Source: Bacteriovoracaceae bacterium (GTDB lineage: Bacteria > Bdellovibrionota > UBA1018). Taken from it: a stretch of DNA of 20,602 bases. The stretch spans positions 1-20,602 of the forward strand of contig JAHFAC010000005.1 in the NCBI GenBank assembly GCA_023250755.1, written 5' to 3'. Shown here piece after piece: positions 1,268 to 19,525 of this stretch. Positions within the stretch are counted from its first letter, which is position 1, and every line of letters begins with the position of its first letter. The position numbers and the translations under genes were made by a program. Under the pieces are notes generated by a model, which saw nothing but the letters and a program-made list of their open reading frames with translations, searched no databases and had not been told where the DNA came from.

Positions 1268-2274
1268 AAAACATGAAATCTCTTGGACTTCTCTTTCAAG
1301 ACGGAAAGTTGCTAGTCTTGGATCAGCAAAAACTTCCTCATGAAGAAGTCTGGCTGACCTGTGAGTCACCTGAGCAGATGATCCAATTGATTCAGGCGCT
1401 CAAGATTCGAGGTGCTCCGCTGATTGGCGTCGGTGCTGCGCTGGCTTTAGCGGCTTACGCAGAAAAAGGAGCGAGTCGTGCTAAGATTTTAGACGCAGCT
1501 TTAGCTCTCAGGATTGCACGCCCGACTGCAGTGAATCTCATGGCTGCTGTGGACCGTGTTGTTTTGAATTGCGTCAAGGGTGACTTGACGGTTTCAGGGA
1601 TTTTGAGCCGTGCTGAGGCGATCTTTGATGAGGATGTGGTCCTTTGTGATACGATTGCCTGCCATGGCGAGTTACTCATTGAGGATGGCGACGGTGTATT
1701 AACTCATTGCAATGCCGGAGGGCTTGCCACGGCCGGGATTGGGACAGCTCTTGGAATTATTCGGCGCGCACATGAAAAGGGTCGAAAATTTCATGTTTTT
1801 GTCGATGAAACTCGGCCGCTTTTACAAGGCGCTCGCCTGACCGCTTGGGAGTTAAGTCAGTTCGGGATCCCTTACACTCTGATTTGCGACTCCATGTCAG
1901 CGATGTTGATGCGTCAGGGGCGGATTCAGAAGGTTTTTGTCGGTGCCGACCGGATCGCGCGCAATGGCGATTTTGCGAATAAGATCGGTACTTATACAGT
2001 TGCGCTGGCGGCGCGGTATCACCAAGTTTCCTTTTACGTGGCGGCTCCCTACACGACGGTGGACCTGGCCTGTCCTGATGGTTCAGCGATTCCGATCGAA
2101 GAGAGAACACCGGATGAAGTCAGGGCGGGCAATAGCCCTGCTGGATGTTCGGTTTATAATCCTGCGTTCGATGTGACTCCTGCAGAACTGGTGAGTGCCC
2201 ATGTTTTGGATCGAGGGGTGGTACGGTTGAGGGATGGGGCAAAGCTTGAGGATTTTAGCTCACGATGTACTTAA
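1264..2274 (+). CDS. mtnA: S-methyl-5-thioribose-1-phosphate isomerase family (MtnA)
   Basis: A 336-residue member of the eIF2B-like/MtnA isomerase family, which converts 5-methylthioribose-1-phosphate (or 5-deoxyribose-1-phosphate) to the ribulose-1-phosphate form. Diagnostic motifs are RGAPLIGV (49-56), RPTAVNL (86-92), THCNAGG (147-153) with the catalytic-type Cys149, FVDETRP (179-185), and VGADRI (226-231) with Asp229, followed by NGDFANKIGTY (234-244). Length and motif spacing are normal, so the gene looks intact. The chosen ATG lies in a 4-base ATGA overlap with the aldolase stop, implying translational coupling. It supplies the substrate for the aldolase next door. Its 3' end overlaps the 3' end of the oppositely oriented amidotransferase gene by 20 bases, with no terminator between them. 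Confidence 0.93.
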   Translation: MKNMKSLGLLFQDGKLLVLDQQKLPHEEVWLTCESPEQMIQLIQALKIRGAPLIGVGAALALAAYAEKGASRAKILDAALALRIARPTAVNLMAAVDRVVLNCVKGDLTVSGILSRAEAIFDEDVVLCDTIACHGELLIEDGDGVLTHCNAGGLATAGIGTALGIIRRAHEKGRKFHVFVDETRPLLQGARLTAWELSQFGIPYTLICDSMSAMLMRQGRIQKVFVGADRIARNGDFANKIGTYTVALAARYHQVSFYVAAPYTTVDLACPDGSAIPIEERTPDEVRAGNSPAGCSVYNPAFDVTPAELVSAHVLDRGVVRLRDGAKLEDFSSRCT

Positions 2275-3448
2275 GCTTCCACTTGCCATATTCTTTTTCC
2301 CAGACGTTGGATTTTTCTCGGTAAAAATCCATCACCTCCCAGAAAAAATCCTCTGTGATGCCGAGATAGCTCAAGAACCATTTGAAGTGCCGCTCCGGAA
2401 ATTCACCATCGAATCTTCTCACCAAGGCAACGCCTTCTTCTCGGGTGATATGGTTTCTGCGGATGTCTTGCTGCGCATCCCGTGATGCGCGACCCAAACC
2501 GAATTTCATGTGGGACAAGTAGAAGTGAAAGCCATCGGCCTTGTCGTCAAGGCTCGCGTACTTGGTATAGGTCCCCTCGGAGCGCCCCTCGTCGTTGGTC
2601 TCGAATCCCGTATGCTTGATGGCATAATAGAAATTTTCTTGGGGGGTCCACTTGCTGTAATAAGAGAACCAATGCATTTCGAGTCCATTTTTGGCGATCA
2701 CATCAGGAGGTGGAGCCTTATACCATTGGAGTGAGCGCGGCAGGATTTCATCAGATTTGAGCAGGTTTCTTTCAACGCCCACTTGAACCAGGTGATCCAC
2801 TGACGCGCCCTTGTAATAAGCTTTCTCCCACTCCTCAGGCCCTTCTTTCGGGAGATTTTTGTATTTGGTCATTCCACCGTATTCGAGCTCGCCGTTCTCG
2901 CCGTAAAAAATCAATTTAACATTAAATTTTTCGGCAATATGAAATGCGAAGGCTTTTTGTCCATAAGCGAATGGCTCCCAAGCGTCACCTTTAAGCTCAA
3001 AGGCCAATCGTGAGAGTTTTCGGTGGACAACGCCATCTGGTTGACCGATCAAATTTGTAAAACCGCTAGAAACAAAAGCCTGGAGGTTGCGCCAACCGAT
3101 TTCGGTCCAGTCAAAGGGCGCCCAAGTGACGCAGAGCGGGTTCATTCCGTAACGATGCTTGAGCTGATGAGCGACGACGGCACTATCCTTGCCGCCGCTG
3201 CCAGGAACAACGACGTCAAAGGAGCCATCCGTACGACGAAATCGATCGCAGAGCTCTTTCAATTCTTTTTCACGCGTAACCCAGTCCACAAGGTGGTCTT
3301 TCTCGTGCGCCCATTGACAGGCTGAGCAGACCCCTTGCTCATTGAGCAGGGTTCGAGGACGTTGATTCGAGACGACGCAGTTTTTGCAGAAAGCAATCTC
3401 CTTCGGAAGATCGTCGAACTGCTTATCGAGTGTGAGATTCAATGCCAT
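2255..3448 (-). CDS. N-acetyl sugar amidotransferase (WbpG/PseA type), last gene of the legionaminate operon
   Basis: A 397-residue ATP-PPi-loop enzyme that converts an N-acetyl group of a sugar into an acetamidino group using ammonia. The PP-loop SGGKDS is at residues 84-89. Two Cys pairs, C21/C24 and C41/C44, form a probable zinc knuckle ahead of it, as in WbpG of Pseudomonas aeruginosa and PseA of Campylobacter. In Pseudomonas the partners are HisH2 and HisF2; here the upstream neighbour is a single HisF-HisH fusion, 7 bases away, which would deliver the ammonia. The operon makes legionaminic acid, so the likely product is a 5- or 7-acetamidino legionaminate or a precursor of it; which position is modified is inference. 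I chose ATG 3448, with AGAGG just upstream, over a GTG at 3466 that overlaps the fusion gene. The gene ends tail-to-tail over mtnA. Confidence 0.88.
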   Translation of the reverse strand: MALNLTLDKQFDDLPKEIAFCKNCVVSNQRPRTLLNEQGVCSACQWAHEKDHLVDWVTREKELKELCDRFRRTDGSFDVVVPGSGGKDSAVVAHQLKHRYGMNPLCVTWAPFDWTEIGWRNLQAFVSSGFTNLIGQPDGVVHRKLSRLAFELKGDAWEPFAYGQKAFAFHIAEKFNVKLIFYGENGELEYGGMTKYKNLPKEGPEEWEKAYYKGASVDHLVQVGVERNLLKSDEILPRSLQWYKAPPPDVIAKNGLEMHWFSYYSKWTPQENFYYAIKHTGFETNDEGRSEGTYTKYASLDDKADGFHFYLSHMKFGLGRASRDAQQDIRRNHITREEGVALVRRFDGEFPERHFKWFLSYLGITEDFFWEVMDFYREKSNVWEKEYGKWKLKYIVS

Positions 3449-3455
3449 AAAACCT

Positions 3456-4955
3456 CTACAAATCACCTTTCAAGAAATTATCCAAAAGTTTGAGTCCGAA
3501 GGTCCCGCTTCGCTCGGGATGGAATTGCACTCCGATCACGTTTTTTTTGCGAATCACAGAATGAAATGAGTTGAGGCCGTATTCAGTTTTCGCAAGGCAA
3601 TCATCAGGGCTGTTTACTTGGACTTTATAAGAATGAACAAAGTACATTGGAGCTCCTGCTGGAATGTCACGCAGCAGGGTCGATCGCCAGCTCTTGATGC
3701 TTTCGACTGGATCAATTCCGTTCCACGTCATATGCGGAACTTTAACTTTTGATTCACCGCTCCCGGGTTGAATCGGCGTTACTTGTCCGTCGATCAGACC
3801 CAAGCCTTCCCATTCGCCATTCTCATAGGAAACAGAGGTCAAAAGCTGCATGCCAAGACAAATCCCCAACAAAGGGCGGCCGCGTGCCGAGTAATCTTTT
3901 AATGCTTGAATGAGGCCCCGTTCACGAAGATTTTTTATCCCGTGCTCAAATGCGCCTACACCCGGCAAAATCAGCTGATTTGCGGCAAGAACGTCATTTG
4001 CAGAATGTACGGTTTTGACTTTGGTGTCGAGAGACTCGAGTGCCATGCGAAGATTAAAAAGATTGCCTAGTCCATAATCCAGGAGAGTGACGGCAGTTTT
4101 TGCTTCTTGGATCGAAAATGGACCGACCGGAATCGCCCGTTGGCCACAGTAGACGAAGCTAAGAAAATCCCAATTGCCGAGAACTAGGTGCCGACCCATG
4201 CGCAGCGCTTTGCTCGCACTAAACTGGTCATACGACGGGTAGGCATCCATATATTTATAGTGAAATGCAGACGCCACAGAAACCGCGTCGGCTTTGCCTT
4301 CTCTTATCGCCTGGATGAGATGCGCTGGCTGCCCAGCGCCTCCACAGGCAATGACCGGGATAGGGACTGATTCAGAAATTTTTTGGATGAGCTCAAGATC
4401 GAACCCGCGACCTGTTCCCTCTTGATTGATGGAGGTCAGGATAATTTCGCCCGCGCCTAAGTCCACCACTTGCTTGGCCCAATCCATCGCATTGAGGTGG
4501 GTAGGCTGTCTACCGTAGTCAACCCAAACCCGATACTCGCCATTGGATTTACGATAAGTCTCAATTGAGCTGACGATGCATTGCGATCCGAACACACGGG
4601 CGGCTTCTTGGATCAGTTTCGGGTTCTCAACAGCTGCCGTATTGATGGCCACTTTGTCAGCTCCTGCACGTAAAACTGCTCGAATGTCCTCTACCGAACA
4701 AAGGCCTCCCGCAACGGTAATTGGAATAAAAACTTTAGACGCTGTCTTTGAGATGATTTCTAGCAGGCTATTTCTTCGGTAAAGGCTGGCCACCGTATCT
4801 TGAAAAAACAGCTCGTCAGCACCTTCATGGTAATAGAGGTTGGCGAAATACTCTGGGGTGCCTACCACGCGATAGCCGTCAAACTGAATCCCTTTGATGA
4901 GATTAGGTCCCTTGACATCTAATCGGGGAATGATTCGAACTATACCCTTCTTCAT
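3456..4955 (-). CDS. HisF-HisH fusion, putative ammonia-supplying partner for sugar amidination
   Basis: A single 499-residue frame with two enzymes of the imidazole-glycerol-phosphate synthase pair. Residues 1 to about 258 are a HisF-type (beta-alpha)8 barrel (RIIPRLDVK at 8-16, INTAAVENP at 104-112, CGGAG at 204-208). Residues from about 288 to 499 are a HisH glutamine amidotransferase with an intact triad: Cys366 in GICLGMQ, His479 and Glu481 in QFHPE. A linker of about 30 residues joins them. Eukaryotic HIS7 has HisH first; here the order is reversed. In the barrel, the second catalytic Asp of HisF (Asp130 in Thermotoga) aligns by eye with Glu132, and the residue before LDVK is Arg rather than Cys. 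No other his genes are present, and the gene lies between ptmA and a WbpG/PseA amidotransferase. I infer that glutamine-derived ammonia passes from the HisH half to that enzyme. ATG 4955 has an AGAG ribosome site. Confidence 0.9.
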   Translation of the reverse strand: MKKGIVRIIPRLDVKGPNLIKGIQFDGYRVVGTPEYFANLYYHEGADELFFQDTVASLYRRNSLLEIISKTASKVFIPITVAGGLCSVEDIRAVLRAGADKVAINTAAVENPKLIQEAARVFGSQCIVSSIETYRKSNGEYRVWVDYGRQPTHLNAMDWAKQVVDLGAGEIILTSINQEGTGRGFDLELIQKISESVPIPVIACGGAGQPAHLIQAIREGKADAVSVASAFHYKYMDAYPSYDQFSASKALRMGRHLVLGNWDFLSFVYCGQRAIPVGPFSIQEAKTAVTLLDYGLGNLFNLRMALESLDTKVKTVHSANDVLAANQLILPGVGAFEHGIKNLRERGLIQALKDYSARGRPLLGICLGMQLLTSVSYENGEWEGLGLIDGQVTPIQPGSGESKVKVPHMTWNGIDPVESIKSWRSTLLRDIPAGAPMYFVHSYKVQVNSPDDCLAKTEYGLNSFHSVIRKKNVIGVQFHPERSGTFGLKLLDNFLKGDL

Positions 4956-4992
4956 TTGATCTCTTCATAGCGGAACGTGAATCGAGAAACAA

Positions 4993-5817
4993 CTACCATG
5001 CACTCAATCCCCCATCGACTACCAGGGCCTGACCGGTGATATAGCTGGATGCGTCGGAAGCCAAGAAGATCAGAGCACCGACCATCTCTTCGGGGTCAGC
5101 CATTCGAGCCATCGGAATTCTAGCAGAATATTTTTCAGTAAAAACTGAGTTTTGTCCGCTCTGCACGCCACCGGGGATTAACGTATTGACTCGGATGCCT
5201 CGAGCGCCCCAGAGGGTTGCTAAGTAGCGAGTCATCCCGACCACAGCGGCTTTAGATGCGCAATAAACAGCAGGAGTGTTAATCTGCGTGCCAAGATAGT
5301 GGGATCCTTCATAGATGCGCGTATCGGGAGCCAGGATCCCATAAATCGAGCTTGTTTGAATGACACTTCCCTTGATTTCATTTTTCAGCATATGAGCGCC
5401 GACGGCTCGTGCGACTAAAAACATCCCATCCACATTAACGGACATCACTTCTCGCCAATCGTCCATGCTGAAGCGTTCCGTCTCAGCAAAGAATCTTTTT
5501 ACATCCTTAGTTTTACTGGCGGCATTGTTGTGGAGAACGTGGATTTTTCCAAATTTTGCGACTGCTTTTGCGAGCATTGCAGTGACCGAGGATTCATTAG
5601 AAACATCACATTGGATTCCTAATGCTTGGACGTCGTATTGCCGAGAGATCTCAGATGCGAACTGATCCACCTGAGCTTGATCTAAGTCGACGATGATGAG
5701 ATTTGCGCCAAATTCCGCAAGACCTTGGCAGAAGTGTCTGCCTAAAATCCCCACTCCTCCGGTAACGATTGCGGTTTTTCCATCGAGCCTGAAGCGATTC
5801 ATGTATTTACCAGACAT
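4993..5817 (-). CDS. ptmA: Short-chain dehydrogenase/reductase, PtmA-like
   Basis: A 274-residue classical SDR. The nucleotide-binding TGGVGILG is at 19-26, NNAA at 97-100, a catalytic Ser around 156-157 (QTSSIYG) and the YCASK pair Tyr185/Lys189. The C-terminal ITGQALVVDGG is typical of the family. In Campylobacter legionaminate loci, PtmA is an SDR of this kind acting with PtmF; both are thought to feed the amino-sugar precursor, but their exact reaction is not firmly established. The symbol rests on operon context as much as on sequence. I chose ATG 5817 because it has an AAGAGA-like ribosome site and overlaps legF by 11 bases; a longer frame runs to 5910 and a shorter ATG sits at 5802. 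The next gene starts 37 bases downstream. Confidence 0.82.
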   Translation of the reverse strand: MSGKYMNRFRLDGKTAIVTGGVGILGRHFCQGLAEFGANLIIVDLDQAQVDQFASEISRQYDVQALGIQCDVSNESSVTAMLAKAVAKFGKIHVLHNNAASKTKDVKRFFAETERFSMDDWREVMSVNVDGMFLVARAVGAHMLKNEIKGSVIQTSSIYGILAPDTRIYEGSHYLGTQINTPAVYCASKAAVVGMTRYLATLWGARGIRVNTLIPGGVQSGQNSVFTEKYSARIPMARMADPEEMVGALIFLASDASSYITGQALVVDGGLSAW

Positions 5818-6520
5818 CTTGAAATCTCTTTCTGTGGATGGCGATGAATTTGACCCACTCGAAATCCAATTCTGAATCAATATCAATTGAGCGTTCTTCA
5901 GGCATTTCAAAAAGTCGGGTGCCTGTCTGAAAGACTCCTTCGCAGTCCATAAGGGTTTGCCGTTTCCAGGCGTAAATGGATGCGTTCATATCAAAGCAGC
6001 GAGGCGCATCTTGGCGCCGAAGAATGGGATTTGAGAGAGTTTTTGCGAGTTTGACCGACCCATCCGATAGCTCTTCAGCAAGATTGAAATAAGGGGAGCG
6101 ACGCGCAGGTGCTCCTGTGATGACGTTGGGAGCGTCGCTTGATTCGAGGAGTTGGACGGCACCTTGGATATCCGAGACGAGTCGGAGCGGAGAAGTCGCG
6201 TCCAGATCCACAATAATATCAAAGCGCCGGTCGAGAGTGGTCTCAGCGCTCAGCACACAGTGACGGATGGCGGGTAATTTTCCGGCAGTATCGGTGGCCA
6301 TCTCAGCCGGACGGACGATGGCAAGCTCGACTCCGTATTCTCGAGCGACTGATAGAATTTGCTCGGAGTCGCTACTTACTGCGATCGAATCAAAAAGACC
6401 TGATTTCTGGGCCTGTAAAATGGAATAAGCCAGGAGGGGTTTACCGGCAAGCTCTCTCAGGTTCTTGCCCTTGACTCCCTTGGATCCACCGCGTGCGCAA
6501 AGGGTGCAAAGTCTTTTCAT
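5807..6520 (-). CDS. legF: CMP-legionaminic acid synthetase (CMP-NeuA family)
   Basis: A 237-residue cytidylyltransferase of the NeuA/LegF/PtmB family, which activates a nonulosonic acid with CTP to give the CMP-sugar used by transferases. It has the N-terminal CTP-binding ARGGSKGVKGKNL (9-21), VSSDSE (48-53) and the DLDATSPLR stretch (105-113), which corresponds to the family's DxQxTSPLR signature and contacts the sugar. The C-terminal DIDSELDFEW is the metal-binding end motif. Length is normal for single-domain members. The start is the ATG in a 4-base overlap with the ptmF stop; the reading frame extends further upstream, but only into ptmF. Neighbours ptmE, ptmF and ptmA, plus a legB-type dehydratase, point to legionaminate rather than sialate or pseudaminate as the substrate. 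That choice is inference. Confidence 0.9.
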   Translation of the reverse strand: MKRLCTLCARGGSKGVKGKNLRELAGKPLLAYSILQAQKSGLFDSIAVSSDSEQILSVAREYGVELAIVRPAEMATDTAGKLPAIRHCVLSAETTLDRRFDIIVDLDATSPLRLVSDIQGAVQLLESSDAPNVITGAPARRSPYFNLAEELSDGSVKLAKTLSNPILRRQDAPRCFDMNASIYAWKRQTLMDCEGVFQTGTRLFEMPEERSIDIDSELDFEWVKFIAIHRKRFQDVW

Positions 6521-7428
6521 GAATGAACCCAAATCCCCTCTCGATTTGATTTTTCTATGGCTTCGGCGAACAGAAGTGTTTTTAGTCCTTCTGAGAGCGA
6601 ACAAACGTCTTTTCCTGAATGATTTAGGATGGATTGATGCAGGGTTAAATAGGTGGAGTCGCGGTCATTTTCGAATTTTTCGGTTTGACCCTCTAAATTC
6701 AAAAATCCATTTACCAAATCTGCGTGGTAAGTGTGTTCAGCAGTATTTATGGTGAGGGTTCTTTGACTGATGCGGTCCAGGTAGTTGAGCTCGAGAGTGA
6801 TGACTGGACAGCGCGCAGTGCGCATCAGGATGGAGCAAGTGTCTTCAGCATCGATGTCTAGATCACTAAATTTTCCTGCAATCGCAGTCACCGAGTTCCA
6901 ATGTCCAAAAATCCAAGTCAAATAATCAAGCTCATGACTGAGATCCCTCAAAACTCCGCCGCCTTCTTTTTTTTGAGCGGAATAACTTTCTCGATAGTCT
7001 TGGTGAGGCCGCCAGGAGGGCAGGTATTGGCCAACATAAGCGTTGATTGAGCAGATCTTCTGGTCAGCCAGGATGTTTTTCAGGCGAGTAAGAATTGGAT
7101 GGAATCGCAGATTATATCCCACAAAAACCTGCATTTTACCCAGAGGGCCGATTTCTCTGAAATTCTCAAAGACTGGTTTTTCGATTAAAATCTTGCCCGA
7201 ATAGCCGGTGGCGTGAAGTTCTTGCAAGCTCGTAAAATGTTTTGCGGTTGAATTGGCGATGACCACGTAATCGGGCTTCATTTGTTTAACGGCTGTTTGA
7301 AGGTCGCTAAAGCGATTTTGACCTGGCTCCAGGTGTTGGCTGACGACCCCGACGTCGAGGCCCAGTCGAGTTAAAATCCCAGCGTGCCGTTGACCGATGG
7401 AGCCTTGACCGATGACCAGAGCGTTCAT
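6517..7428 (-). CDS. ptmF: Gfo/Idh/MocA-family oxidoreductase, PtmF-like
   Basis: A 303-residue NAD(P)-dependent oxidoreductase. The Rossmann signature GQGSIGQRHAG is at 7-17, and the family's EKP motif at 83-85 carries the conserved Lys next to the active site. The C-terminal half holds the substrate domain, with GGGVLRDLSHELDYL (roughly 156-170) matching the helix that carries catalytic residues in this family. It is slightly shorter than many Gfo/Idh/MocA enzymes. In Campylobacter the ptmF product is grouped with PtmA and PtmE in the early, GDP-linked part of legionaminate synthesis. The reaction here is not shown by the sequence, and the symbol is based on context. It overlaps ptmE and legF by 4 bases each. 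Confidence 0.82.
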   Translation of the reverse strand: MNALVIGQGSIGQRHAGILTRLGLDVGVVSQHLEPGQNRFSDLQTAVKQMKPDYVVIANSTAKHFTSLQELHATGYSGKILIEKPVFENFREIGPLGKMQVFVGYNLRFHPILTRLKNILADQKICSINAYVGQYLPSWRPHQDYRESYSAQKKEGGGVLRDLSHELDYLTWIFGHWNSVTAIAGKFSDLDIDAEDTCSILMRTARCPVITLELNYLDRISQRTLTINTAEHTYHADLVNGFLNLEGQTEKFENDRDSTYLTLHQSILNHSGKDVCSLSEGLKTLLFAEAIEKSNREGIWVHS

Positions 7429-8492
7429 TGAGTCATCTCTTGGTGAGTCGCATTCGCTTTTTCAAAATCATCCAATCTTCCGATATCCATCCAATATTCA
7501 CGGACAGGGAAGGCCCCAATGGGACTTTTGGTGTCAATCAGCTCTGCAAACAGCGAGGTCATGTCGAAGGTCTGCCCCTTAGGAATGCGATCTAAAACCA
7601 CGGGATTGAGTACGTAAATCCCACCATTGACAAAGAATTTATGAGTCGGTTTTTCATCGATGCTGTGAATATGGTGATTGCGTTGATCGAGCGAAACCAC
7701 TCCGTAAGGGACTTGAAACTCATATTCTTTCACGCACATGGTGGCTATGGCGCCCTGTTGAATATGGAATTCGAGCAGTTGATTGAAGTTTACTTTGGTC
7801 AGGAGATCGCCATTCATGACGATCACTGGATTTTTGGGTTTTACGGGGAGCAAAGAGAGTGCCCCGGCGGTTCCCAGTCTTGTTTCTTCTTCGACATATT
7901 GGATTTTTGCTCCAAACTGTGAGCCATCTTGAAAATAGTTTTTAACCATTTCAGCTTTATAGTTGACCGAAAAATAGAAAGAGCGAAACCCCTGTGAGAT
8001 AAAATTTTCGACAATGCTTTCTAGAATCGGTTTGGATCCGACCCTCAACATGGGTTTAGGAGTATCTCGGGTCAGGGGATAAAGCCGGTGCCCCATTCCG
8101 CCGGCCATAATGATGACGGGATTATCGTGAGTCTCTTTATTGAGAAAATCCTCAAGTGCCGCTAATCCCAAGATCCGACGACTTGTATCAAGGATGGGGA
8201 GTTGCCTCAGTATATGGCTTTTGAGGAGCGAAAAAATTTCGTCTTGTGTGGTAGATGGGCCCGCGACCAGGGGATTACAGTTCATGACTTCACCGACTGA
8301 GTGATCCAAGGGGATGCCTCGGAGGATGCCTCGTCGAATATCCCCATCCGAAACTGTTCCAATCAATCGTCCTTCTTCGTCGATGACCAGGGCTAGTTGC
8401 ATGCCGCCTGAATCAATGACCTTGATTGCCTGAACGATCGAGGTGCCTTGCTGGATCAAGAGATCTTTCCAATTAGAGATTTTTTTGACCAT
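7425..8492 (-). CDS. ptmE: CBS-domain nucleotidyltransferase, probable glucosamine-1-phosphate guanylyltransferase (PtmE)
   Basis: A 355-residue protein with two CBS motifs (about residues 15-115) followed by a sugar nucleotidyltransferase domain (about 126-350). The latter shows GGMGHRLYPLT (131-141), TPKPMLRVG (144-152), and MNGDLLT with the metal Asp. The C-terminal YWMDIGRLDDFEKA is standard for the family. The CBS-plus-transferase layout is that of Campylobacter PtmE, which makes GDP-glucosamine and so opens the GDP route to legionaminic acid. GTP rather than CTP or UTP specificity is inferred. The CBS pair may sense a nucleotide. The frame is open upstream to 8618, but the start at 8492 is fixed by a perfect AGGAGGT ribosome site 6 bases before the ATG. 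It is the only gene in the core of the operon separated from its upstream neighbour, by 40 bases, instead of overlapping it. Confidence 0.88.
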   Translation of the reverse strand: MVKKISNWKDLLIQQGTSIVQAIKVIDSGGMQLALVIDEEGRLIGTVSDGDIRRGILRGIPLDHSVGEVMNCNPLVAGPSTTQDEIFSLLKSHILRQLPILDTSRRILGLAALEDFLNKETHDNPVIIMAGGMGHRLYPLTRDTPKPMLRVGSKPILESIVENFISQGFRSFYFSVNYKAEMVKNYFQDGSQFGAKIQYVEEETRLGTAGALSLLPVKPKNPVIVMNGDLLTKVNFNQLLEFHIQQGAIATMCVKEYEFQVPYGVVSLDQRNHHIHSIDEKPTHKFFVNGGIYVLNPVVLDRIPKGQTFDMTSLFAELIDTKSPIGAFPVREYWMDIGRLDDFEKANATHQEMTQ

Positions 8493-8498
8493 GGTTTT

Positions 8499-8505
8499 AC
8501 CTCCT
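8499..8505 (-). promoter_or_regulatory. Strong ribosome binding site of ptmE
   Basis: On the minus strand the site reads AGGAGGT, followed by 6 bases and the ATG at 8492. It decides the ptmE start over the upstream extension of the frame, which would run into legI. It is the clearest independent initiation site inside an operon whose other core genes mostly use ATGA stop/start overlaps. Confidence 0.8.
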
Positions 8506-8532
8506 AATCCATTCAATCCTGTCAACACTGCT

Positions 8533-9627
8533 TCATTCAATAATGAGTTCGTCGGATCCATAATCACGGTGGGCCTTCTTTCCAAGTAACTCCCAATATC
8601 GAATCGGAGACATTCCACTCCCTGGGCGTTTGGTGGTCAAGTTTTCTATGGAAAACTTTTCGCCTTTTTTAATCGGGCGACCGGTGACTAAACTCTTCCG
8701 TGCAATCGGAATATTTTTCAACTCCGAGGGGGAAGGTCGCTTTTTTCCATCGCCCACTGCCGATTCTACGGCGCGAACTGCTTTGACGAGGGCGATCAGC
8801 TCATCGGGATCGATCGAGGCCGGGTGATCGGGGCCAGGGAGTGTTTTATCTAAAGTGAAGTGTTTTTCAATCACTACAGCGCCCCTGGCTGCTGCGGCGA
8901 TGGGGATGGTGATTCCCGGCGTATGATCAGAGTATCCGACAGGCAGGCCAAACTCACGAGCTAACGTATCCATGGCGTGAAGATTCACATCTTCAAAGGG
9001 GCAAGGGTACTCAGTCGTGCAGTGGAGGAGCGTTACTTTTGCTTTTAGGGCGGATTGTCCCGGCTTGGATGCAAAGGCTTGACGAAATGTTTTTTGGCCA
9101 GGTTGAATTCTTTTCTTGTTCTTTTGAGCCTCATCAATAAAGCCGAAGGCCAGAACCGAAAGAGCCTCTCTGACTTCTTTCAATGTACTCATTCCGGTTG
9201 AGAGGAGTACGGATTTATCTTTACGCGCGATTTCGAGCAAGAAAGGCGCATTGGTCAACTCGCCAGAAGGAATTTTGATCAAGGGAAGTCCATACCGGTC
9301 AGTCAATAAGTTCAAGCTATCTGAATCAAAGGGCGCCGACAAAAACCGGATCCGCTTCTTGCGACAGTGCTGAATCAGGATTTTATGCGCTGCTGGGCTG
9401 AGTTCGAGTTTCTTCAGCATTTCAAACTGAGACTCAGATGCACCCGTAAGCCGTTTTTGGTAGCTGGCTTTTTGAGCGGATTTTGTGCTGAGATTTTCTG
9501 TCTTAAAGGTCTGGAACTTCACGAAGTCAGCGCCTGCTGTAGCGGCAACGTCAATCAATTGCAGGGCCCGGTTGAGGTCCCCGTTATGGTTGACGCCCGC
9601 TTCTGCGATAAGGATGATTTTTTTCAT
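8533..9627 (-). CDS. legI: Legionaminic acid synthase (NeuB family)
   Basis: A 364-residue synthase that condenses phosphoenolpyruvate with a 6-carbon N-acetyl sugar to form a 9-carbon nonulosonic acid. The TIM barrel opens with IAEAGVNHNGD (7-17) and FVKFQTF (35-41), and continues through KIPSGE (118-123), LLSTGM (141-146), HCTTEYPCP (202-210) and GYSDHTPGI (231-239). An antifreeze-like SAF domain closes the protein at about 308-362 (ARKSLVTGRPIKKGE). Between LSTGM and HCTTEYP there is an insertion of roughly 30 residues relative to sialic acid synthases; I recall such an insertion in LegI-type enzymes, which supports legionaminate over sialate. The substrate would be the 2,4-diacetamido-2,4,6-trideoxymannose released by the LegG homologue two genes upstream. 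It overlaps the upstream acetyltransferase gene by 4 bases. Confidence 0.92.
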   Translation of the reverse strand: MKKIILIAEAGVNHNGDLNRALQLIDVAATAGADFVKFQTFKTENLSTKSAQKASYQKRLTGASESQFEMLKKLELSPAAHKILIQHCRKKRIRFLSAPFDSDSLNLLTDRYGLPLIKIPSGELTNAPFLLEIARKDKSVLLSTGMSTLKEVREALSVLAFGFIDEAQKNKKRIQPGQKTFRQAFASKPGQSALKAKVTLLHCTTEYPCPFEDVNLHAMDTLAREFGLPVGYSDHTPGITIPIAAAARGAVVIEKHFTLDKTLPGPDHPASIDPDELIALVKAVRAVESAVGDGKKRPSPSELKNIPIARKSLVTGRPIKKGEKFSIENLTTKRPGSGMSPIRYWELLGKKAHRDYGSDELIIE

Positions 9628-10277
9628 TTCGCCTCCCGAGCGGGTACGCCGAAGGCTTTGATTCCACCTGATTCAAAAGAGTGAATCACCAGTGAGCCTG
9701 CTCCGATCAAGGTCTCTGGGCCTAAAATTATTTTTTGAATGATCGTTGATCCGGCACCAATCAAGGATTTTTCGCCGATTTTGACAGAACCGCAAACAGT
9801 AACACCGGGGGCGATGTGAACGTGATCGCCGATCTCTGAATCATGATCAATGGTCGCACCTGTATTGATGATCGAGTTGCTTCTGATTTGGCAACCAGGC
9901 TGAATGCGCACTCCGGCCATGATTTGAACTCCTTCACCCAAGCTTACTTCAGATCCTACCCAAGCGGTGGGATGGATCAGGGTTAAGAATTCGTAGCCTC
10001 TTTCTCGAAACTTATTAAAAACGGTTCTTCGGGTTTGGGTGGATGAGACTCCCCCGAGTCCATTGACTAAATGAACTTCAGAAGGGGAATGCTTGAGGAC
10101 CCAGTCTTCACCCCCTAAGATGGGAACTCCGAGGATTTTCGTTCCGTGTTTCACTGGATCAGTATCGACCGCTCCCATCACAGAGTGATCCAGAGCCCGA
10201 AGAGTATCCAGTAAAACCTTGGCGTGACCTCCGCAGCCAAGAACAATAATAGGGCGAGCGTGTGGCTGTTTTTTCAT
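9624..10277 (-). CDS. legH: NeuD/PglD-family sugar N-acetyltransferase, probable LegH
   Basis: A 217-residue left-handed beta-helix acetyltransferase. The N-terminal UDP-sugar-binding half carries GCGGHAK (14-20). The hexapeptide-repeat half runs from about 105 to 200 and ends in AFGVPAR. His145 in NTGATIDHDSEIG is in the place of the catalytic His of PglD. In the pathway such an enzyme acetylates the 4-amino group made by LegC, using acetyl-CoA. Some family members instead O-acetylate the finished nonulosonate (NeuD/NeuO type), which I cannot exclude. As it is the only N-acetyltransferase in the operon, the LegH role is the simplest reading. It overlaps both neighbours by 4 bases. Confidence 0.87.
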   Translation of the reverse strand: MKKQPHARPIIVLGCGGHAKVLLDTLRALDHSVMGAVDTDPVKHGTKILGVPILGGEDWVLKHSPSEVHLVNGLGGVSSTQTRRTVFNKFRERGYEFLTLIHPTAWVGSEVSLGEGVQIMAGVRIQPGCQIRSNSIINTGATIDHDSEIGDHVHIAPGVTVCGSVKIGEKSLIGAGSTIIQKIILGPETLIGAGSLVIHSFESGGIKAFGVPAREAK

Positions 10278-11455
10278 GGCTGGGCGCCCCTGATTTCGGG
10301 AGAGTCAAAAAAAGGTTTTCTGGACAGGGTTGTCAGATCCACTTGAGCCAAAGTCTCCTTAATCCGTGTGGAGGCGGTGCCATCTCCGTAGGGGGATTGG
10401 GCTGTCTCTAGGGTTGCGCGGAACTCAGCCGACAGCGCTTTTCGAATGGCCTGGGCGATTTGCACCGAGTTTTCTGCGCAATCGATGACGGTGGGGCCCC
10501 GGAGGCGCCCCTTTTGACGATCTCCGATGTTGACGGTGGGTTTTTTTAATGCAGGCACTTCAATTAAGCCGCTCGATGAATTTCCGATGACTACATCTGC
10601 GATTCGCACAGCGCTGAAATATCCCCGTTGCCCCAGAGCGGTGGCGACTTGGATACGATGAGAGTCTTTAGCGGCATAGGTGTCAATCAACTGAGAAAGC
10701 GTACGGCCATCGGTGTCAGCGTTGGGGCGTGTAAAAAGAATGTGGGCTTCTGGAAATTGGTCCAGAGCCGCGAAAAGCTCACTCAAAGTGTCTTTGGGTG
10801 TCCGATGAGCCAAAGTAACGGGATGGTAGGTGACGAGAAAACCGAGTGAACCCCACTGGATACCAAATTTTTGCTCAAACTCCGCTCGGTCCAAAAATTT
10901 TGTCTTGTGGATTGCATCCAATCCCGGTGCTCCGAAATTGAAAACACACCCGGGATTTTCTCCCAGCTGAATTACGCGCCTTCGGTGTGGCTCCGCCGAG
11001 ACGAAGTGAAGGTGGGACATTTTGGTGATGGCGTGCCGGATGGACTCATCGATGGCACCTTCGGTGACTTCTCCCCCATGGAGGTGAGCGATGGGGAGCC
11101 TGGCGATCATTGCGGCCTGAGCCGCCGCTAAGATTTCAAATCGATCACCCAATATAACGACTAAATCGGGTTGAATTTGCGCAAAGGCATCGGCAAATCC
11201 AATCACGCCTAGGCCTATAGATTTGGAAACCCCGGTTGGCGTATCACTCGAAAGCAAACTCTCGACACGGTAAGTGACCTTAAATCCGTCCTCTTCAATA
11301 TTTTTCACAGTCAGACCGAACTCGGGTGAAAGGTGCATCCCCGTAACTACGAGAGTGAGCTCGAGGGTGGGATCGGATTGGATTTCTTTCATCAGACCAC
11401 GCAAAATCCCGTAATCTGCCCGAGAACCCGTGACTACGCAGATTTTTCGACTCAT
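10274..11455 (-). CDS. legG: NDP-sugar 2-epimerase, hydrolysing (NeuC/LegG family)
   Basis: A 393-residue enzyme of the hydrolysing UDP-GlcNAc 2-epimerase family. Its start VTGSRADYGILRG (8-20) and HLHGGEVTEGAIDESIRH (124-141) are close to NeuC-type signatures. GDRFEILAAA (103-112) and the late IGNSSSGLIEVP and NIGDRQKGR stretches form the nucleotide-binding C-terminal lobe. In legionaminate synthesis this enzyme removes the nucleotide from the NDP-diacetamido sugar and inverts C2, giving the 6-deoxy-ManNAc derivative used by LegI. A GDP-sugar substrate is inferred from ptmE in the same operon. It overlaps legC and legH by 4 bases each. Length is normal for the family. Confidence 0.9.
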   Translation of the reverse strand: MSRKICVVTGSRADYGILRGLMKEIQSDPTLELTLVVTGMHLSPEFGLTVKNIEEDGFKVTYRVESLLSSDTPTGVSKSIGLGVIGFADAFAQIQPDLVVILGDRFEILAAAQAAMIARLPIAHLHGGEVTEGAIDESIRHAITKMSHLHFVSAEPHRRRVIQLGENPGCVFNFGAPGLDAIHKTKFLDRAEFEQKFGIQWGSLGFLVTYHPVTLAHRTPKDTLSELFAALDQFPEAHILFTRPNADTDGRTLSQLIDTYAAKDSHRIQVATALGQRGYFSAVRIADVVIGNSSSGLIEVPALKKPTVNIGDRQKGRLRGPTVIDCAENSVQIAQAIRKALSAEFRATLETAQSPYGDGTASTRIKETLAQVDLTTLSRKPFFDSPEIRGAQP

Positions 11456-12642
11456 ACGTCCCCTCCCAACTGACTGCTGCTCGGAAGATTGATCAGCCTC
11501 TTCTCAAGGTCTTCAGAGACTGAGAGATCTGCTCTCGGACAGGATTGATACATGGGCAATCGATGCATCAGGATCCATGCTGGTCGCATCATGAGTCCGT
11601 ACTGATGGGCAAACTCTAAAAAAGCATCTCTTTGATGCGTATCGGGTGAGTCAAAGAGAAAGGCATTGAGCCAGTAATTGCTTTGGGCGAAACTGGGTTC
11701 TTTAAAAAATTTTACACCGGCTAGGCCACGAAAGGCGGACTCGTATCTTTGAGCCAGGGCGCGTTTTTTGGATACAAACTGGTCCATCTGCTCCAGTTGA
11801 GCACAGCCCAGGGCTGCATTGAGATTAGGCAGCCGAAAGTTGTATCCAATCTGGTCATGAAAAAACTTCCAAGGATGTTTTTTCTTGGCGGTGGTGGAGA
11901 GGTGCTTCGCCTGTTCACCCAGCTCTGGATCGTTGGTCAAAATCGCTCCACCTCCGCCGGTGGTGACAATTTTATTTCCGTTGAAGCTAAGAGAAGCGAC
12001 TTTTCCGTGGTTTCCGGTGTGGCGTCCCTTGTATTTGGATCCCAAGGATTCTGCGGCATCTTCAATCAGTTCTAAGCGGAAGTCTGAGCAAGTTTCTGCC
12101 AAGGCATCCAAATCCACCGGGTGGCCGTAGATATGGACCGCGATGAGAGCGCGGATTCGGCGCCCTGTTTTTTTGTTAAAGCAGCCTTCTCCACGCAGTT
12201 CTGCGATGTCTTTAAGATAGGCGCGAAGCGCTTCTGGATCGATTCCGAGAGTGATTTTATCACAATCTACGAAGTGAGGAATCCCGCCAGAGTGATGAAC
12301 AGCATTTGCCGTGGCAATAAACGTGAGAGCGGGTAAGAGCACCTCGTCTCCTGCTTCGACTCCCACCAGGCGGCAACAGACTTGGAGAGCGACTGTTCCA
12401 TTGACTGCGCTGATAGCGTGCTTAGCGCCGGTGTACTCTGCCAGGCGCTCTTCAAAAAGATCGACGAATTTACCGACCGAAGAGACCCAGCCGGTGTCCA
12501 GGCATTCTTTGACGTAGTCCCATTCTTTTCCACAAAAAGAAGGTTCGTGAAGCGCGACGGTTGCGGCGTCGGTTCGGATCGCGGTGCGAGTGGCCTCTAT
12601 GATTTGCTGAAAGAGGGGGGCGCCCTTCAATCCTGCGGTCAT
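11452..12642 (-). CDS. legC: PLP-dependent sugar aminotransferase (LegC)
   Basis: A 396-residue DegT/DnrJ/EryC1/StrS-type aminotransferase. The PLP Lys is Lys224 in SFNGNKIVTTGGGG, Asp195 in EDAAES holds the PLP ring nitrogen, and HIYGHP (170-175) is the conserved family stretch. A short insert carrying NKKTGRRI (156-163) before that stretch is something I associate with LegC-like members. It adds a 4-amino group, usually from glutamate, to the 4-keto-6-deoxy sugar nucleotide produced by LegB. Its position directly after legB, with a 4-base overlap, fits that order. The protein is full length with no visible defect. Confidence 0.92.
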   Translation of the reverse strand: MTAGLKGAPLFQQIIEATRTAIRTDAATVALHEPSFCGKEWDYVKECLDTGWVSSVGKFVDLFEERLAEYTGAKHAISAVNGTVALQVCCRLVGVEAGDEVLLPALTFIATANAVHHSGGIPHFVDCDKITLGIDPEALRAYLKDIAELRGEGCFNKKTGRRIRALIAVHIYGHPVDLDALAETCSDFRLELIEDAAESLGSKYKGRHTGNHGKVASLSFNGNKIVTTGGGGAILTNDPELGEQAKHLSTTAKKKHPWKFFHDQIGYNFRLPNLNAALGCAQLEQMDQFVSKKRALAQRYESAFRGLAGVKFFKEPSFAQSNYWLNAFLFDSPDTHQRDAFLEFAHQYGLMMRPAWILMHRLPMYQSCPRADLSVSEDLEKRLINLPSSSQLGGDV

Positions 12643-13658
12643 AGATTATAAATACCCGTTTTGTAGAGTTCGAGATTTTTATGGCTGGTGAACCATTCGA
12701 TCGTTTCAATCAGCCCTGTTTTGAGTCCGCTCAGACCTGGGTGCTCAGGCTTCCATCCCAGGAGTTTTTCAGCCTTGTGGTTATCACCCCAGAGTCGCTC
12801 GACTTCGCTTTTCTCGGGTCTAAAGCGAGCGCCATCGGCAATGATTTCGATTTTTCGGTTCATGAGTTCTGCAATGAGCTGTGCTGTTTCGCCAATTGAG
12901 ATTTCAAAGTTGCTGCTGATGTTGATTTCTTCGCCCACCGAGAGGGGACTTGCTGCTACCGCCATGAATCCCCGCGCTGTGTCCCTGACAAAGCTGAAGT
13001 CGCGAGTGGGGGAGAGCTTTCCGAGTAGAATTCGGCTCTGTCCCGAGGCGATCTGAGAGATGATCGTTGTGATAATGGCTCGTGCCGATTGGCGAGGCCC
13101 ATAGGTATTGAAGGGTCGGATGACGGCAACGGGCGTTCCAAAGGACCGGTAGAAAGAAAGTGCAAGCTGATCTGCCCCGATTTTGGTGGCTGAATAGGGG
13201 GATTGTCCCTGGAGTGGATGGTCTTCAGTGATCGGAGCAAAACGGGCTGTACCGTAAACTTCACTGGTCGAGGTATGAACGACTTTTGAAATTCCGAACT
13301 CACGGGCGGCCTGAAGAACATTGAGAGTGCCTTGGACATTGGTTTCGACGTAACTAGCAGGCGAATGATACGAATAAGGAATCGCAATCAGAGCCGCGAG
13401 ATGGAAGGCGACGTCACACGACTTCATCGCTTCTTTCACCCCAAAGGGATCACGGATATCGCCTGAAAAGACTTCAATCTCGGAGCGGATTTCTTTGGGA
13501 GAATGGTCGAGCCAACCCCAAGAATTAAAAGAATTGTAAAACACGAAGGCTTTGACGCGGCAGCCCTCCCGAACCAGCATTTCCGCCAGGTGGGAGCCGA
13601 TAAATCCGTCTGCGCCGGTGACAATGACCCTCTTTCCTTTGAGATTTTGAAGATTCAT
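12639..13658 (-). CDS. legB: NDP-sugar 4,6-dehydratase (LegB), first gene of the operon
   Basis: A 339-residue extended SDR. TGADGFIGSH (14-23) binds NAD, and GDIRD (66-70), the HTSTSEVYGT stretch (128-137) and the YSATK pair Tyr155/Lys159 form the active site. RPFNTYGPRQS is typical of the LegB dehydratase subgroup. It removes water from a nucleotide-linked N-acetylhexosamine to give the 4-keto-6-deoxy sugar, the first committed step of legionaminate synthesis. GDP-GlcNAc is the likely substrate given ptmE, but the nucleotide is not readable from sequence. It is the first gene of the minus-strand operon, and no clear Shine-Dalgarno site is visible before its ATG. The following gene overlaps it by 4 bases. 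Confidence 0.92.
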   Translation of the reverse strand: MNLQNLKGKRVIVTGADGFIGSHLAEMLVREGCRVKAFVFYNSFNSWGWLDHSPKEIRSEIEVFSGDIRDPFGVKEAMKSCDVAFHLAALIAIPYSYHSPASYVETNVQGTLNVLQAAREFGISKVVHTSTSEVYGTARFAPITEDHPLQGQSPYSATKIGADQLALSFYRSFGTPVAVIRPFNTYGPRQSARAIITTIISQIASGQSRILLGKLSPTRDFSFVRDTARGFMAVAASPLSVGEEINISSNFEISIGETAQLIAELMNRKIEIIADGARFRPEKSEVERLWGDNHKAEKLLGWKPEHPGLSGLKTGLIETIEWFTSHKNLELYKTGIYNL

Positions 13659-18355: not shown

Positions 18356-19525
18356 ATGTACAAAAGAGTTTTAATTGACCATATCCCATTGAATTCATTC
18401 TTTTTATTTGGCCCCAGGCAGTCTGGAAAAAGTACTCTACTCAGTCAATTGGATCCGATTTGGGGCCTGGATTTATTGGATCCTGAAAAACAGCTAGAAT
18501 ACACGAAAGATCCCAAAGTCCTGTATCGTATTCTTACACAAGAGCAATTTGTGAATCGTTCAGGATGGATTGTATTAGACGAAATTCAACGTGCCCCATC
18601 CTTGCTCGATGTCGTACAGATCCTGATGCGGGAACGGCCGTCACTCAGGTTTGCACTTTCTGGATCCAGCGCACGAAAATTAAAACGCGATTCAGCAAAC
18701 CTTTTAGGTGGCCGCGCTGTCGTTCGCACTCTTCATCCACTTACTTATTTAGAATTGGGCAATGATTTTGCCTTGGACCGGATATTGGGGTTCGGATCTC
18801 TTCCAAAAATATATTCTTTGATTTCCTCGGGAGAGACGTCGACGGCGCAGGATCTGCTTAAGAGCTATGTCATTACCTATCTGAACGAAGAAATCAAAGC
18901 AGAAGCCCTCGTTAGAAATCTACAGGGATTTCAAAATTTTCTGGACTTGGCCGCGTTTCAATTTACTGAGCAAGTGAATTTCAGCAGAATGGAAAAAGAT
19001 TGCAGAGTGTCCTACTCTGCAATTCGTGATTACTATTCCATTTTGGAAGATACGTTGATTGGTTTTTTCCTGCAGCCCTATCTGCGCAGCAGGCGAAAGC
19101 GGATGAGTCATGCACCCAAATTTTATTTCTTCGACAATGGGGTTACGCGAGCCATTTTAGGGCTTCATCGTTCGGCCATTTCGCCCCTCGAAAGGGGGCG
19201 TCTTTGGGAGCAATGGTTTATCCAAGAGGTGATGCGAATGAATGCTTACTACCAAAAAGAATGGGTTCTCTCTTTTTGGAGAACAAGTCATGGTGCTGAA
19301 GTTGATCTTCTGATCGAGCGCGGCCGTGAGATTTTGTGCGCGATTGAGATGAAGTCAGGACGCATTATTTCGGATTCAGAGCTTACCGGGATCAAGTCGT
19401 TCCAAATGGATCATCCCAAGGTGCCATGCTTTGTAGCGGGGAGTTTTGAACAGCCTCAAAAATTTTCGGTTTGTGAGGTTTATCCGGCTCTTTTTTTATT
19501 AGACAAGCTGAAAAAAGAATTTTGA
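18356..19525 (+). CDS. AAA-type ATPase with DUF4143-like C-terminal domain
   Basis: A 389-residue protein of the COG1373-type ATPase family, whose role is unknown and which is common as scattered accessory genes in bacteria. The N-terminal ATPase has Walker A GPRQSGKST (19-27), Walker B WIVLDEIQ (71-78) with Asp75/Glu76, and a sensor-like LSGSSARKL (101-109). HPLTYLEL (127-134) and LNEEIKAEALVRN (176-188) are hallmark stretches. The C-terminal half has FYFFDNGV (256-263) and a restriction-nuclease-like arrangement of GAEVD (Asp317) and IEMKSG (Glu331, Lys333). Length is normal and no damage is seen. The start is the ATG directly after a perfect palindrome, with no ribosome site, so the gene may be leaderless and autoregulated. 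It interrupts a run of sugar genes and does not belong to them functionally, which suggests an insertion. Confidence 0.88.
   Translation: MYKRVLIDHIPLNSFFLFGPRQSGKSTLLSQLDPIWGLDLLDPEKQLEYTKDPKVLYRILTQEQFVNRSGWIVLDEIQRAPSLLDVVQILMRERPSLRFALSGSSARKLKRDSANLLGGRAVVRTLHPLTYLELGNDFALDRILGFGSLPKIYSLISSGETSTAQDLLKSYVITYLNEEIKAEALVRNLQGFQNFLDLAAFQFTEQVNFSRMEKDCRVSYSAIRDYYSILEDTLIGFFLQPYLRSRRKRMSHAPKFYFFDNGVTRAILGLHRSAISPLERGRLWEQWFIQEVMRMNAYYQKEWVLSFWRTSHGAEVDLLIERGREILCAIEMKSGRIISDSELTGIKSFQMDHPKVPCFVAGSFEQPQKFSVCEVYPALFLLDKLKKEF

Follow-up and report, generated by a model that had tools for sequence, protein, structure and literature searches.

A HisF-then-HisH fusion beside a WbuX-type amidotransferase gene in a legionaminate-type cluster of a Bacteriovoracaceae bacterium

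Gene organization of the locus

The window, which is the whole stretch of 20,602 nucleotides analysed here from contig JAHFAC010000005.1 of a Bacteriovoracaceae bacterium, carried a hisF2-hisH2 fusion gene and its neighbours on the minus strand (Table 1). Upstream of the fusion, and on the same strand, the genes from the SDR oxidoreductase to LegB formed a legionaminate-type set. A previous sequence-only reading had placed the fusion in a legionaminate operon, which was borne out by LegB, LegC, NeuB, NeuC, and NeuD, all of them above curated cut-offs. The CBS-domain nucleotidyltransferase of the set is presumably PtmE-like.

Table 1. Features of the fusion gene and of the surrounding cluster in the window
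Feature	Position	Strand	Remarks
WbuX/WbpG-type N-acetyl sugar amidotransferase	2255..3448	minus	PP-loop SGGKDS; CKNC/CSAC cysteine pairs
hisF2-hisH2 fusion gene	3456..4955	minus	499 aa, ATG ... TAG
HisH class-I glutaminase domain	3468..4091	minus	residues 289-496
HisH triad codons	C366 3858-3860; H479 3519-3521; E481 3513-3515	minus	
C-terminal extension of the HisF2 subgroup	4098..4247	minus	residues 237-286; pLDDT < 50 in residues 239-281
HisF (beta-alpha)8 barrel domain	4248..4940	minus	residues 6-236; Glu132 (nt 4560-4562) replaces T. maritima Asp130
SDR oxidoreductase	4993..5910	minus	longest frame used as extent, start provisional
CMP-nonulosonate cytidylyltransferase-like	5807..6604	minus	TIGR03584, below cut-off
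GFO/IDH/MocA oxidoreductase	6517..7428	minus	
CBS-domain nucleotidyltransferase	7425..8618	minus	
NeuB-family nonulosonate synthase	8533..9627	minus	above curated cut-off
NeuD-family acetyltransferase	9624..10277	minus	above curated cut-off
NeuC-family UDP-sugar 2-epimerase	10274..11455	minus	above curated cut-off
LegC aminotransferase	11452..12642	minus	TIGR04181 534.7 bits, cut-off 420
LegB 4,6-dehydratase	12639..13658	minus	TIGR04180 516.8 bits, cut-off 475

Downstream of the fusion, seven bases separated its TAG stop from the ATG (position 3448) of the WbuX gene. The product of this gene scored 327.1 bits with TIGR03573 (cut-off 203.2) and possessed the SGGxDS PP-loop and the tetracysteine motif, and the earlier claim that a WbpG/PseA-type amidotransferase lies seven bases away was thus confirmed in both spacing and identity. 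The solved amidotransferase structure NASAT from Legionella pneumophila (PDB 8WEX) was a relative of this WbuX protein (E 2.5e-96). The terms "HisF" and "HisH" were absent from the main text of the 8WEX paper by term search (PMC10607449).

Two further regions of the window were on the plus strand. At 156-2274, the end of an amidohydrolase, a class II aldolase, and an MtnA-type isomerase (TIGR00512 382.7 bits, cut-off 279) stood in a row, resembling a methylthioadenosine/5-deoxypentose salvage cluster. At 18356-19525, on the edge of the sugar cluster, an ATPase with AAA_14 and DUF4143 matches was found.

Domain architecture of the fusion protein

The fusion gene was a single uninterrupted frame, starting with the ATG at 4955 and ending with the TAG at 3456-3458. 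The extent of the frame given in the previous reading stood, and the strand is corrected here to minus. The barrel was matched by the HisF model TIGR00735 at residues 6-236 with an E value of 4.5e-81, which was below the model cut-off. This was the top model for the barrel, slightly ahead of the WbuZ model TIGR03572 (E 2.1e-79; 266.2 bits, below the cut-off of 299.7), and the HisF2 model NF038364 gave 203.5 bits, also below its cut-off of 310. The HisH model TIGR01855 matched residues 289-496 with 196.4 bits (cut-off 105.4). The triad C366/H479/E481 was intact and did not vary across the 120 fused rows, a set that includes the window protein. The 499-aa frame, the two domain models, and the triad together upheld the original description of a one-frame HisF-then-HisH protein with an intact Cys366/His479/Glu481 triad.

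The predicted structure of the fusion had a mean pLDDT of 85.5 and a pTM of 0.86, with most of both domains modelled confidently. Apart from the inter-domain residues given in Table 1, pLDDT was below 50 at residues 57-60. The fold search compared single chains, and the pTM of 0.86 was the sole sign of how the HisF and HisH domains are placed relative to each other.

The HisF domains of the window protein, of the fused proteins P0094 and P0009, and of the unfused protein from locus L034 were all below the cut-offs of TIGR03572, TIGR00735, and NF038364. The L034 protein, which has a WbuX neighbour, gave 252.7 bits with TIGR03572 and 203.5 bits with NF038364, both below cut-off. The HisF branch of these four proteins is accordingly without a fitting curated model name.

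Inter-domain stretch and the junction

The two domains had been described as joined by a linker of about 30 residues. The stretch in fact comprised about 50 residues (about 237-286), and it aligned with the C-terminal tail of the unfused HisF relatives in L002, L004, L033, and L034. A purpose-made linker between the domains was rejected on this alignment. In the nearest relatives of the window protein, the HisF2 tail is followed by a stop and, close by, by the HisH start. As the alignment reads, the window fusion lacks roughly ten residues at the end of this tail, and the HisH start codon as well. Moreover, no in-frame ATG, GTG, or TTG was present between codons 256 and 303 of the fusion, so HisH has no separate start at the junction.

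The fusion would be a mere artefact if assembly or gene calling had joined two neighbouring frames. The host assembly is fragmented and 71.6% complete, and in three loci (L032, L065, L066) hisF and hisH lie in one frame with a single TAA between them. However, the window differs from its relatives by the missing tail residues and the missing start codon, not merely by a stop, and the same architecture was found in 119 of 119 other relatives among the best 120 of 6936 proteins, so chance read-through is unlikely. An artefact is regarded as extremely improbable.

Order of the HisF and HisH domains

In HIS7, HisH comes first (PMC1963479; PDB 1jvn), and HisHF fusions have been described in PMC1963479 and PMC11237513. 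The window fusion differs from these HIS7/HisHF IGP synthases, in which HisH is N-terminal, in having HisF (6-236) first and HisH (289-496) second and in its changed Asp130. This order had been taken as exceptional.

Gene order was counted in 40 WbuX-context loci, in which the best HisF and a WbuX match lie no more than 3.5 kb apart. HisH lay after HisF in 31 loci and before it in 8, and the remaining locus, L047, with a HisH fragment at its edge, was uncounted. In the loci with HisA beside HisF, HisH was ahead of HisF in 13 of 13. These counts were made without L003, L061-L064, L076, and L077, which are near copies or repeats, and without L022 and L030, where HisH-first fusion frames scored best as HisH. 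The "reversed" order of the fusion is thus accounted for, because free hisF-hisH pairs beside wbuX mostly lie in that same order, and the view that the HisF-first order needs a functional reason was not sustained. The HisF-then-HisH architecture was absent from the 13 loci with HisA beside HisF, a weak indication that it is not routine in true his operons.

HIS7-like HisH-first fusions were also observed in two bacterial loci, L022 from Thiohalocapsa (7983-9614, 544 aa) and L030 from Desulfobacterales (3676-5271, 532 aa).

Fused relatives in databases and genomes

The protein database search returned 6936 proteins at E values up to 1e-3, and the best 120, including the window protein, were examined. 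All 119 others possessed both domains in the HisF-then-HisH order, with lengths of 472-578 residues. At least 119 further proteins therefore share the architecture, which is neither unique nor exceptional in its order. The named hosts were Brocadiales, Omnitrophota, Desulfovibrio, Pseudodesulfovibrio, and Woesearchaeota, and several named members of the fused group were labelled as IGP synthase subunit HisF or HisH. A second database search gave 33 further proteins, namely 27 HisF-HisH, 4 WbuX-HisF, and 2 HisH-WbuX fusions. The identity of 47 database HisF-HisH fusions to the window protein was 44-52%.

In the sampled species genomes, true HisF-HisH fusions were rare at the thresholds used. 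The window protein was the only true fusion recognised among 59 matching of 290 genomes of its own phylum, and among 4 matching of 58 genomes of its own class. No true fusion was recognised among 11 matching (E 1e-75) of 395 genomes in the phylum of the Desulfobacterales locus, where two of the 11 matches had a TAA between the HisF and HisH domains, or among 4 matching (E 1e-70) of 200 genomes in the phylum of the Gemmatimonadota locus. These counts were based on listed frames and on the translations of 29, 11, and 4 loci from the three phyla, respectively; the thresholds would miss more diverged fusions, and frames that were cut short or overlapped, as in L052, were read only loosely. Listed open frames may cross stops, as in L040 (477 aa) and L076 (561 aa), each of which proved to be two frames on translation, and one 568-aa frame with an inner TAG (G131) was outside the translated loci. 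Among 30 of the 93 plasmid records obtained, HisF and HisH were separate genes wherever the match was annotated.

The occurrence of hisF2 and hisH2 as separate paired genes outside the his operon has been published (PMC8305728). For a HisF-first fusion, no description was recognised in the open-licence PMC literature searched.

Phylogeny of the HisF domains

The HisF tree comprised 105 rows and was obtained with a quick IQ-TREE run under the C20 model; 46 of the 120 fused rows were included, and L003 and L062 were left out. A clade of 79 rows (SH-aLRT 100) took in all 46 fused rows; its other members were 30 rows from WbuX-context loci and 3 of unknown context. All 11 rows from his operons fell elsewhere, in a group of 16 (support 86), and 9 further WbuX-context rows formed another group with 1 row of unknown context (support 96). 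Judged from this tree, the fused HisF domains belong to the HisF2 (sugar-amidination) branch, apart from his-operon HisF.

Within the large clade, the window HisF grouped (99) with those of L034, L033, L002, and L004, all of which are unfused pairs. WbuX was next to HisH in L034, L002, and L004, and the L033 stretch ended before any WbuX position. The other HisF-HisH fusions share the domain order and the intact triad with the window protein, yet its HisF is nearer to these unfused pairs. A single clade of the 46 fused rows was rejected on the quick tree by the AU test (p-AU 2.4e-5), and with it a single origin of the sampled fused rows; repeated fusion and repeated fission would look alike in this result.

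Catalytic residues and the histidine pathway

In HisF, D11 serves as the general acid and D130 as the general base (PMC11350729). The window protein kept the first of these as Asp13, but had Glu132 at the Asp130 position, and its IGP synthase catalytic pair was thus incomplete. At the Asp130 position, Asp was present in 11 of 11 his-operon HisF rows. The WbuX-context rows had Glu in 31 of 40 and Asp in 9 of 40, and the 120 fused rows had Glu in 90, Gln in 27, and Ala, Asp, and His in one each. Asp11 was kept in 115 of 120 fused rows and in 30 of 40 WbuX-context rows. The counts were made without L001, L061, L063, and HisF pieces shorter than 200 residues, and the 10 rows of unknown context were unused; among the 40 WbuX-context rows, L003 is a near copy and L059 is represented twice. 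Since 9 of 40 WbuX-context HisF keep Asp130, its loss is not required for the amidination role.

Residues R5, E46, K99, and E167 of T. maritima HisF are, we assume, the ammonia gate of the barrel. The corresponding R7, E48, K101, and E170 were kept in 116 (with 4 gaps), 120, 120, and 120 of the 120 fused rows, respectively. By term search, K99, E46, and R5 were absent from the searched text of PMC8115485, where only fD98 was found.

A search for HisD (PF00815) was positive in 1 of 35 host-family genomes, or 1 of 18 when only the near-complete ones are counted, and negative in the host genome. As a control, the same search found HisD in 13 of 14 known genomes; HisD was the sole histidine-pathway gene sought. 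Beyond the fusion itself, nothing in the host assembly, at 71.6% completeness, matched HisF or HisH at E 1e-3. The scarcity of HisD, the one gene examined, suggests a wide loss of histidine synthesis in the lineage.

These data bear on whether the fusion could be a working IGP synthase for histidine that stands in a sugar operon by chance. The equivalents of D11 and K19 were kept, as were the presumed channel residues and the triad of HisH, and HisF was the top model for the barrel, just above WbuZ. On the other side, Glu occupies the Asp130 position, the HisF domain does not group with his-operon HisF and scores under the TIGR00735 cut-off, and HisD was found in only one of the 35 family genomes and not in that of the host. 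A working IGP synthase is therefore considered very improbable, and a histidine role of the fusion was rejected on the HisD scarcity, the Glu at Asp130, and the position in the HisF tree. The dedicated amidination role proposed earlier gained support from the WbuX neighbour, the HisF2 clade, the changed Asp130, and the same HisD count.

Viral loci with HisF and WbuX

HisF-only patterns picked out 38 loci (L080-L117) in viral contigs, of which 32 had WbuX and 27 had NeuB. A scan with the P0094 protein found nothing in the viral contigs. None of the 38 loci matched the HisH profile; among cellular loci it matched 71 of 76, although many of these had been used to train it. A second profile found no HisH in 37 whole viral records (L091 left out) and matched both control genomes. 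L091 was the sole viral locus noted with HisA beside HisF. Among ten large frames from seven viral loci compared with PHROGs, the terminase large subunit was found in L090, L097, L101, and L105, and one large frame of L081 matched a tail fiber family. An annotated phage collection yielded 16 records; hisF was annotated in two, and the other 14 carried no annotation. These viral loci look like phage-borne sugar-amidination cassettes without a detected glutaminase.

Asp130 was kept in 32 of the 38 viral HisF, and Leu was at the Asp11 position in 23 of 38; viral HisF may thus work differently. Furthermore, the 32 loci with WbuX and without detected HisH imply that the barrel can be retained with no glutaminase of its own, and serving as a conduit for HisH ammonia may not be its whole role. 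The HisF2 barrel might then serve WbuX chiefly as a structural or activating subunit that takes ammonia from any source, with the glutaminase helpful but optional, and the existence of WbuX-HisF fusions without HisH fits this explanation. However, HisH was present in 39 of 40 cellular WbuX-context loci, the 40th (L047) having the HisH fragment at its edge, and the window fusion keeps an intact triad. In a Sphingomonas cluster, transposon hits in WbuX (12), HisF2 (10), and HisH (9) all belonged to mutants whose colony morphology was altered (PMC11340318). The viral records may also be fragments, and a host HisH may serve the virus. A mainly structural barrel is considered possible but less likely than not.

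Proposed coupling to WbuX and mechanism

To our knowledge, it is mostly from gene neighbourhood that HisF and HisH have been assigned a role in amidination clusters. WbuY and WbuZ may supply ammonium to WbuX. The fusions found elsewhere add to the coupling that had been proposed between the window protein and its WbuX neighbour. HisH-WbuX fusion proteins were represented by P0121 and P0122, with 4 and 9 member sequences, respectively. The WbuX-HisF fusion proteins (P0123-P0126) were few and each imperfect, with a gap in the HisF part of P0123, the first strand of the barrel missing in P0124, the start of WbuX missing in P0125, and an odd stretch in the WbuX part of P0126. Together with HisF-HisH, all three pairings of the trio thus occur in fused form. 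The HisH-WbuX and WbuX-HisF fusions are the strongest, albeit indirect, sign of physical coupling.

The window protein is best read as a fusion variant of the known WbuX/HisF2/HisH2 amidination type. It resembles the WbuX-WbuY-WbuZ or WbpG-HisH2-HisF2 trio in the shared families, the adjacent genes, and the surface-sugar context, and the Glu for Asp130 also agrees with most WbuX-context rows. That trio consists of three separate proteins, whereas in the window HisF2 and HisH2 are one polypeptide. With a probability of roughly 80%, the window protein is a HisF2-HisH2 fusion that serves as the accessory half of a sugar-amidination system and not as an IGP synthase.

In the mechanism proposed for this accessory role, the HisH part would hydrolyse glutamine, and the ammonia would enter the fused HisF barrel and be passed to the neighbouring WbuX-type PP-loop enzyme, on which the fusion would dock. 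With ATP, WbuX would activate an N-acetyl group of a legionaminic-type sugar and convert it into an acetamidino group. A reaction of this kind has been reported for the ptmG product, which converts CMP-Leg5Ac7Ac to CMP-Leg5Am7Ac (PMC3766260). The fusion probably came about when an adjacent hisF-hisH pair lost its junction, and it would hold the two parts together as a 1:1 pair.

A wider and more tentative picture, possible but less than even in our estimation, is a three-part HisF2/HisH2/WbuX machine in which a retired IGP-synthase barrel would act as the docking and gating hub. The HisF-first fusions would belong to this retired branch, and phages with the barrel and WbuX would borrow the host glutaminase or free ammonia.

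Significance

Because of the IGP synthase labels on members of the fused group, a histidine step could be attributed to genomes in error. As a reagent, the fused HisF2-HisH2 is a single chain with a fixed 1:1 stoichiometry. Moreover, the function of the barrel could be approached through the three kinds of fusion (HisF2-HisH2, HisH-WbuX, WbuX-HisF), through the changed Asp, and through viral loci in which no HisH was found.
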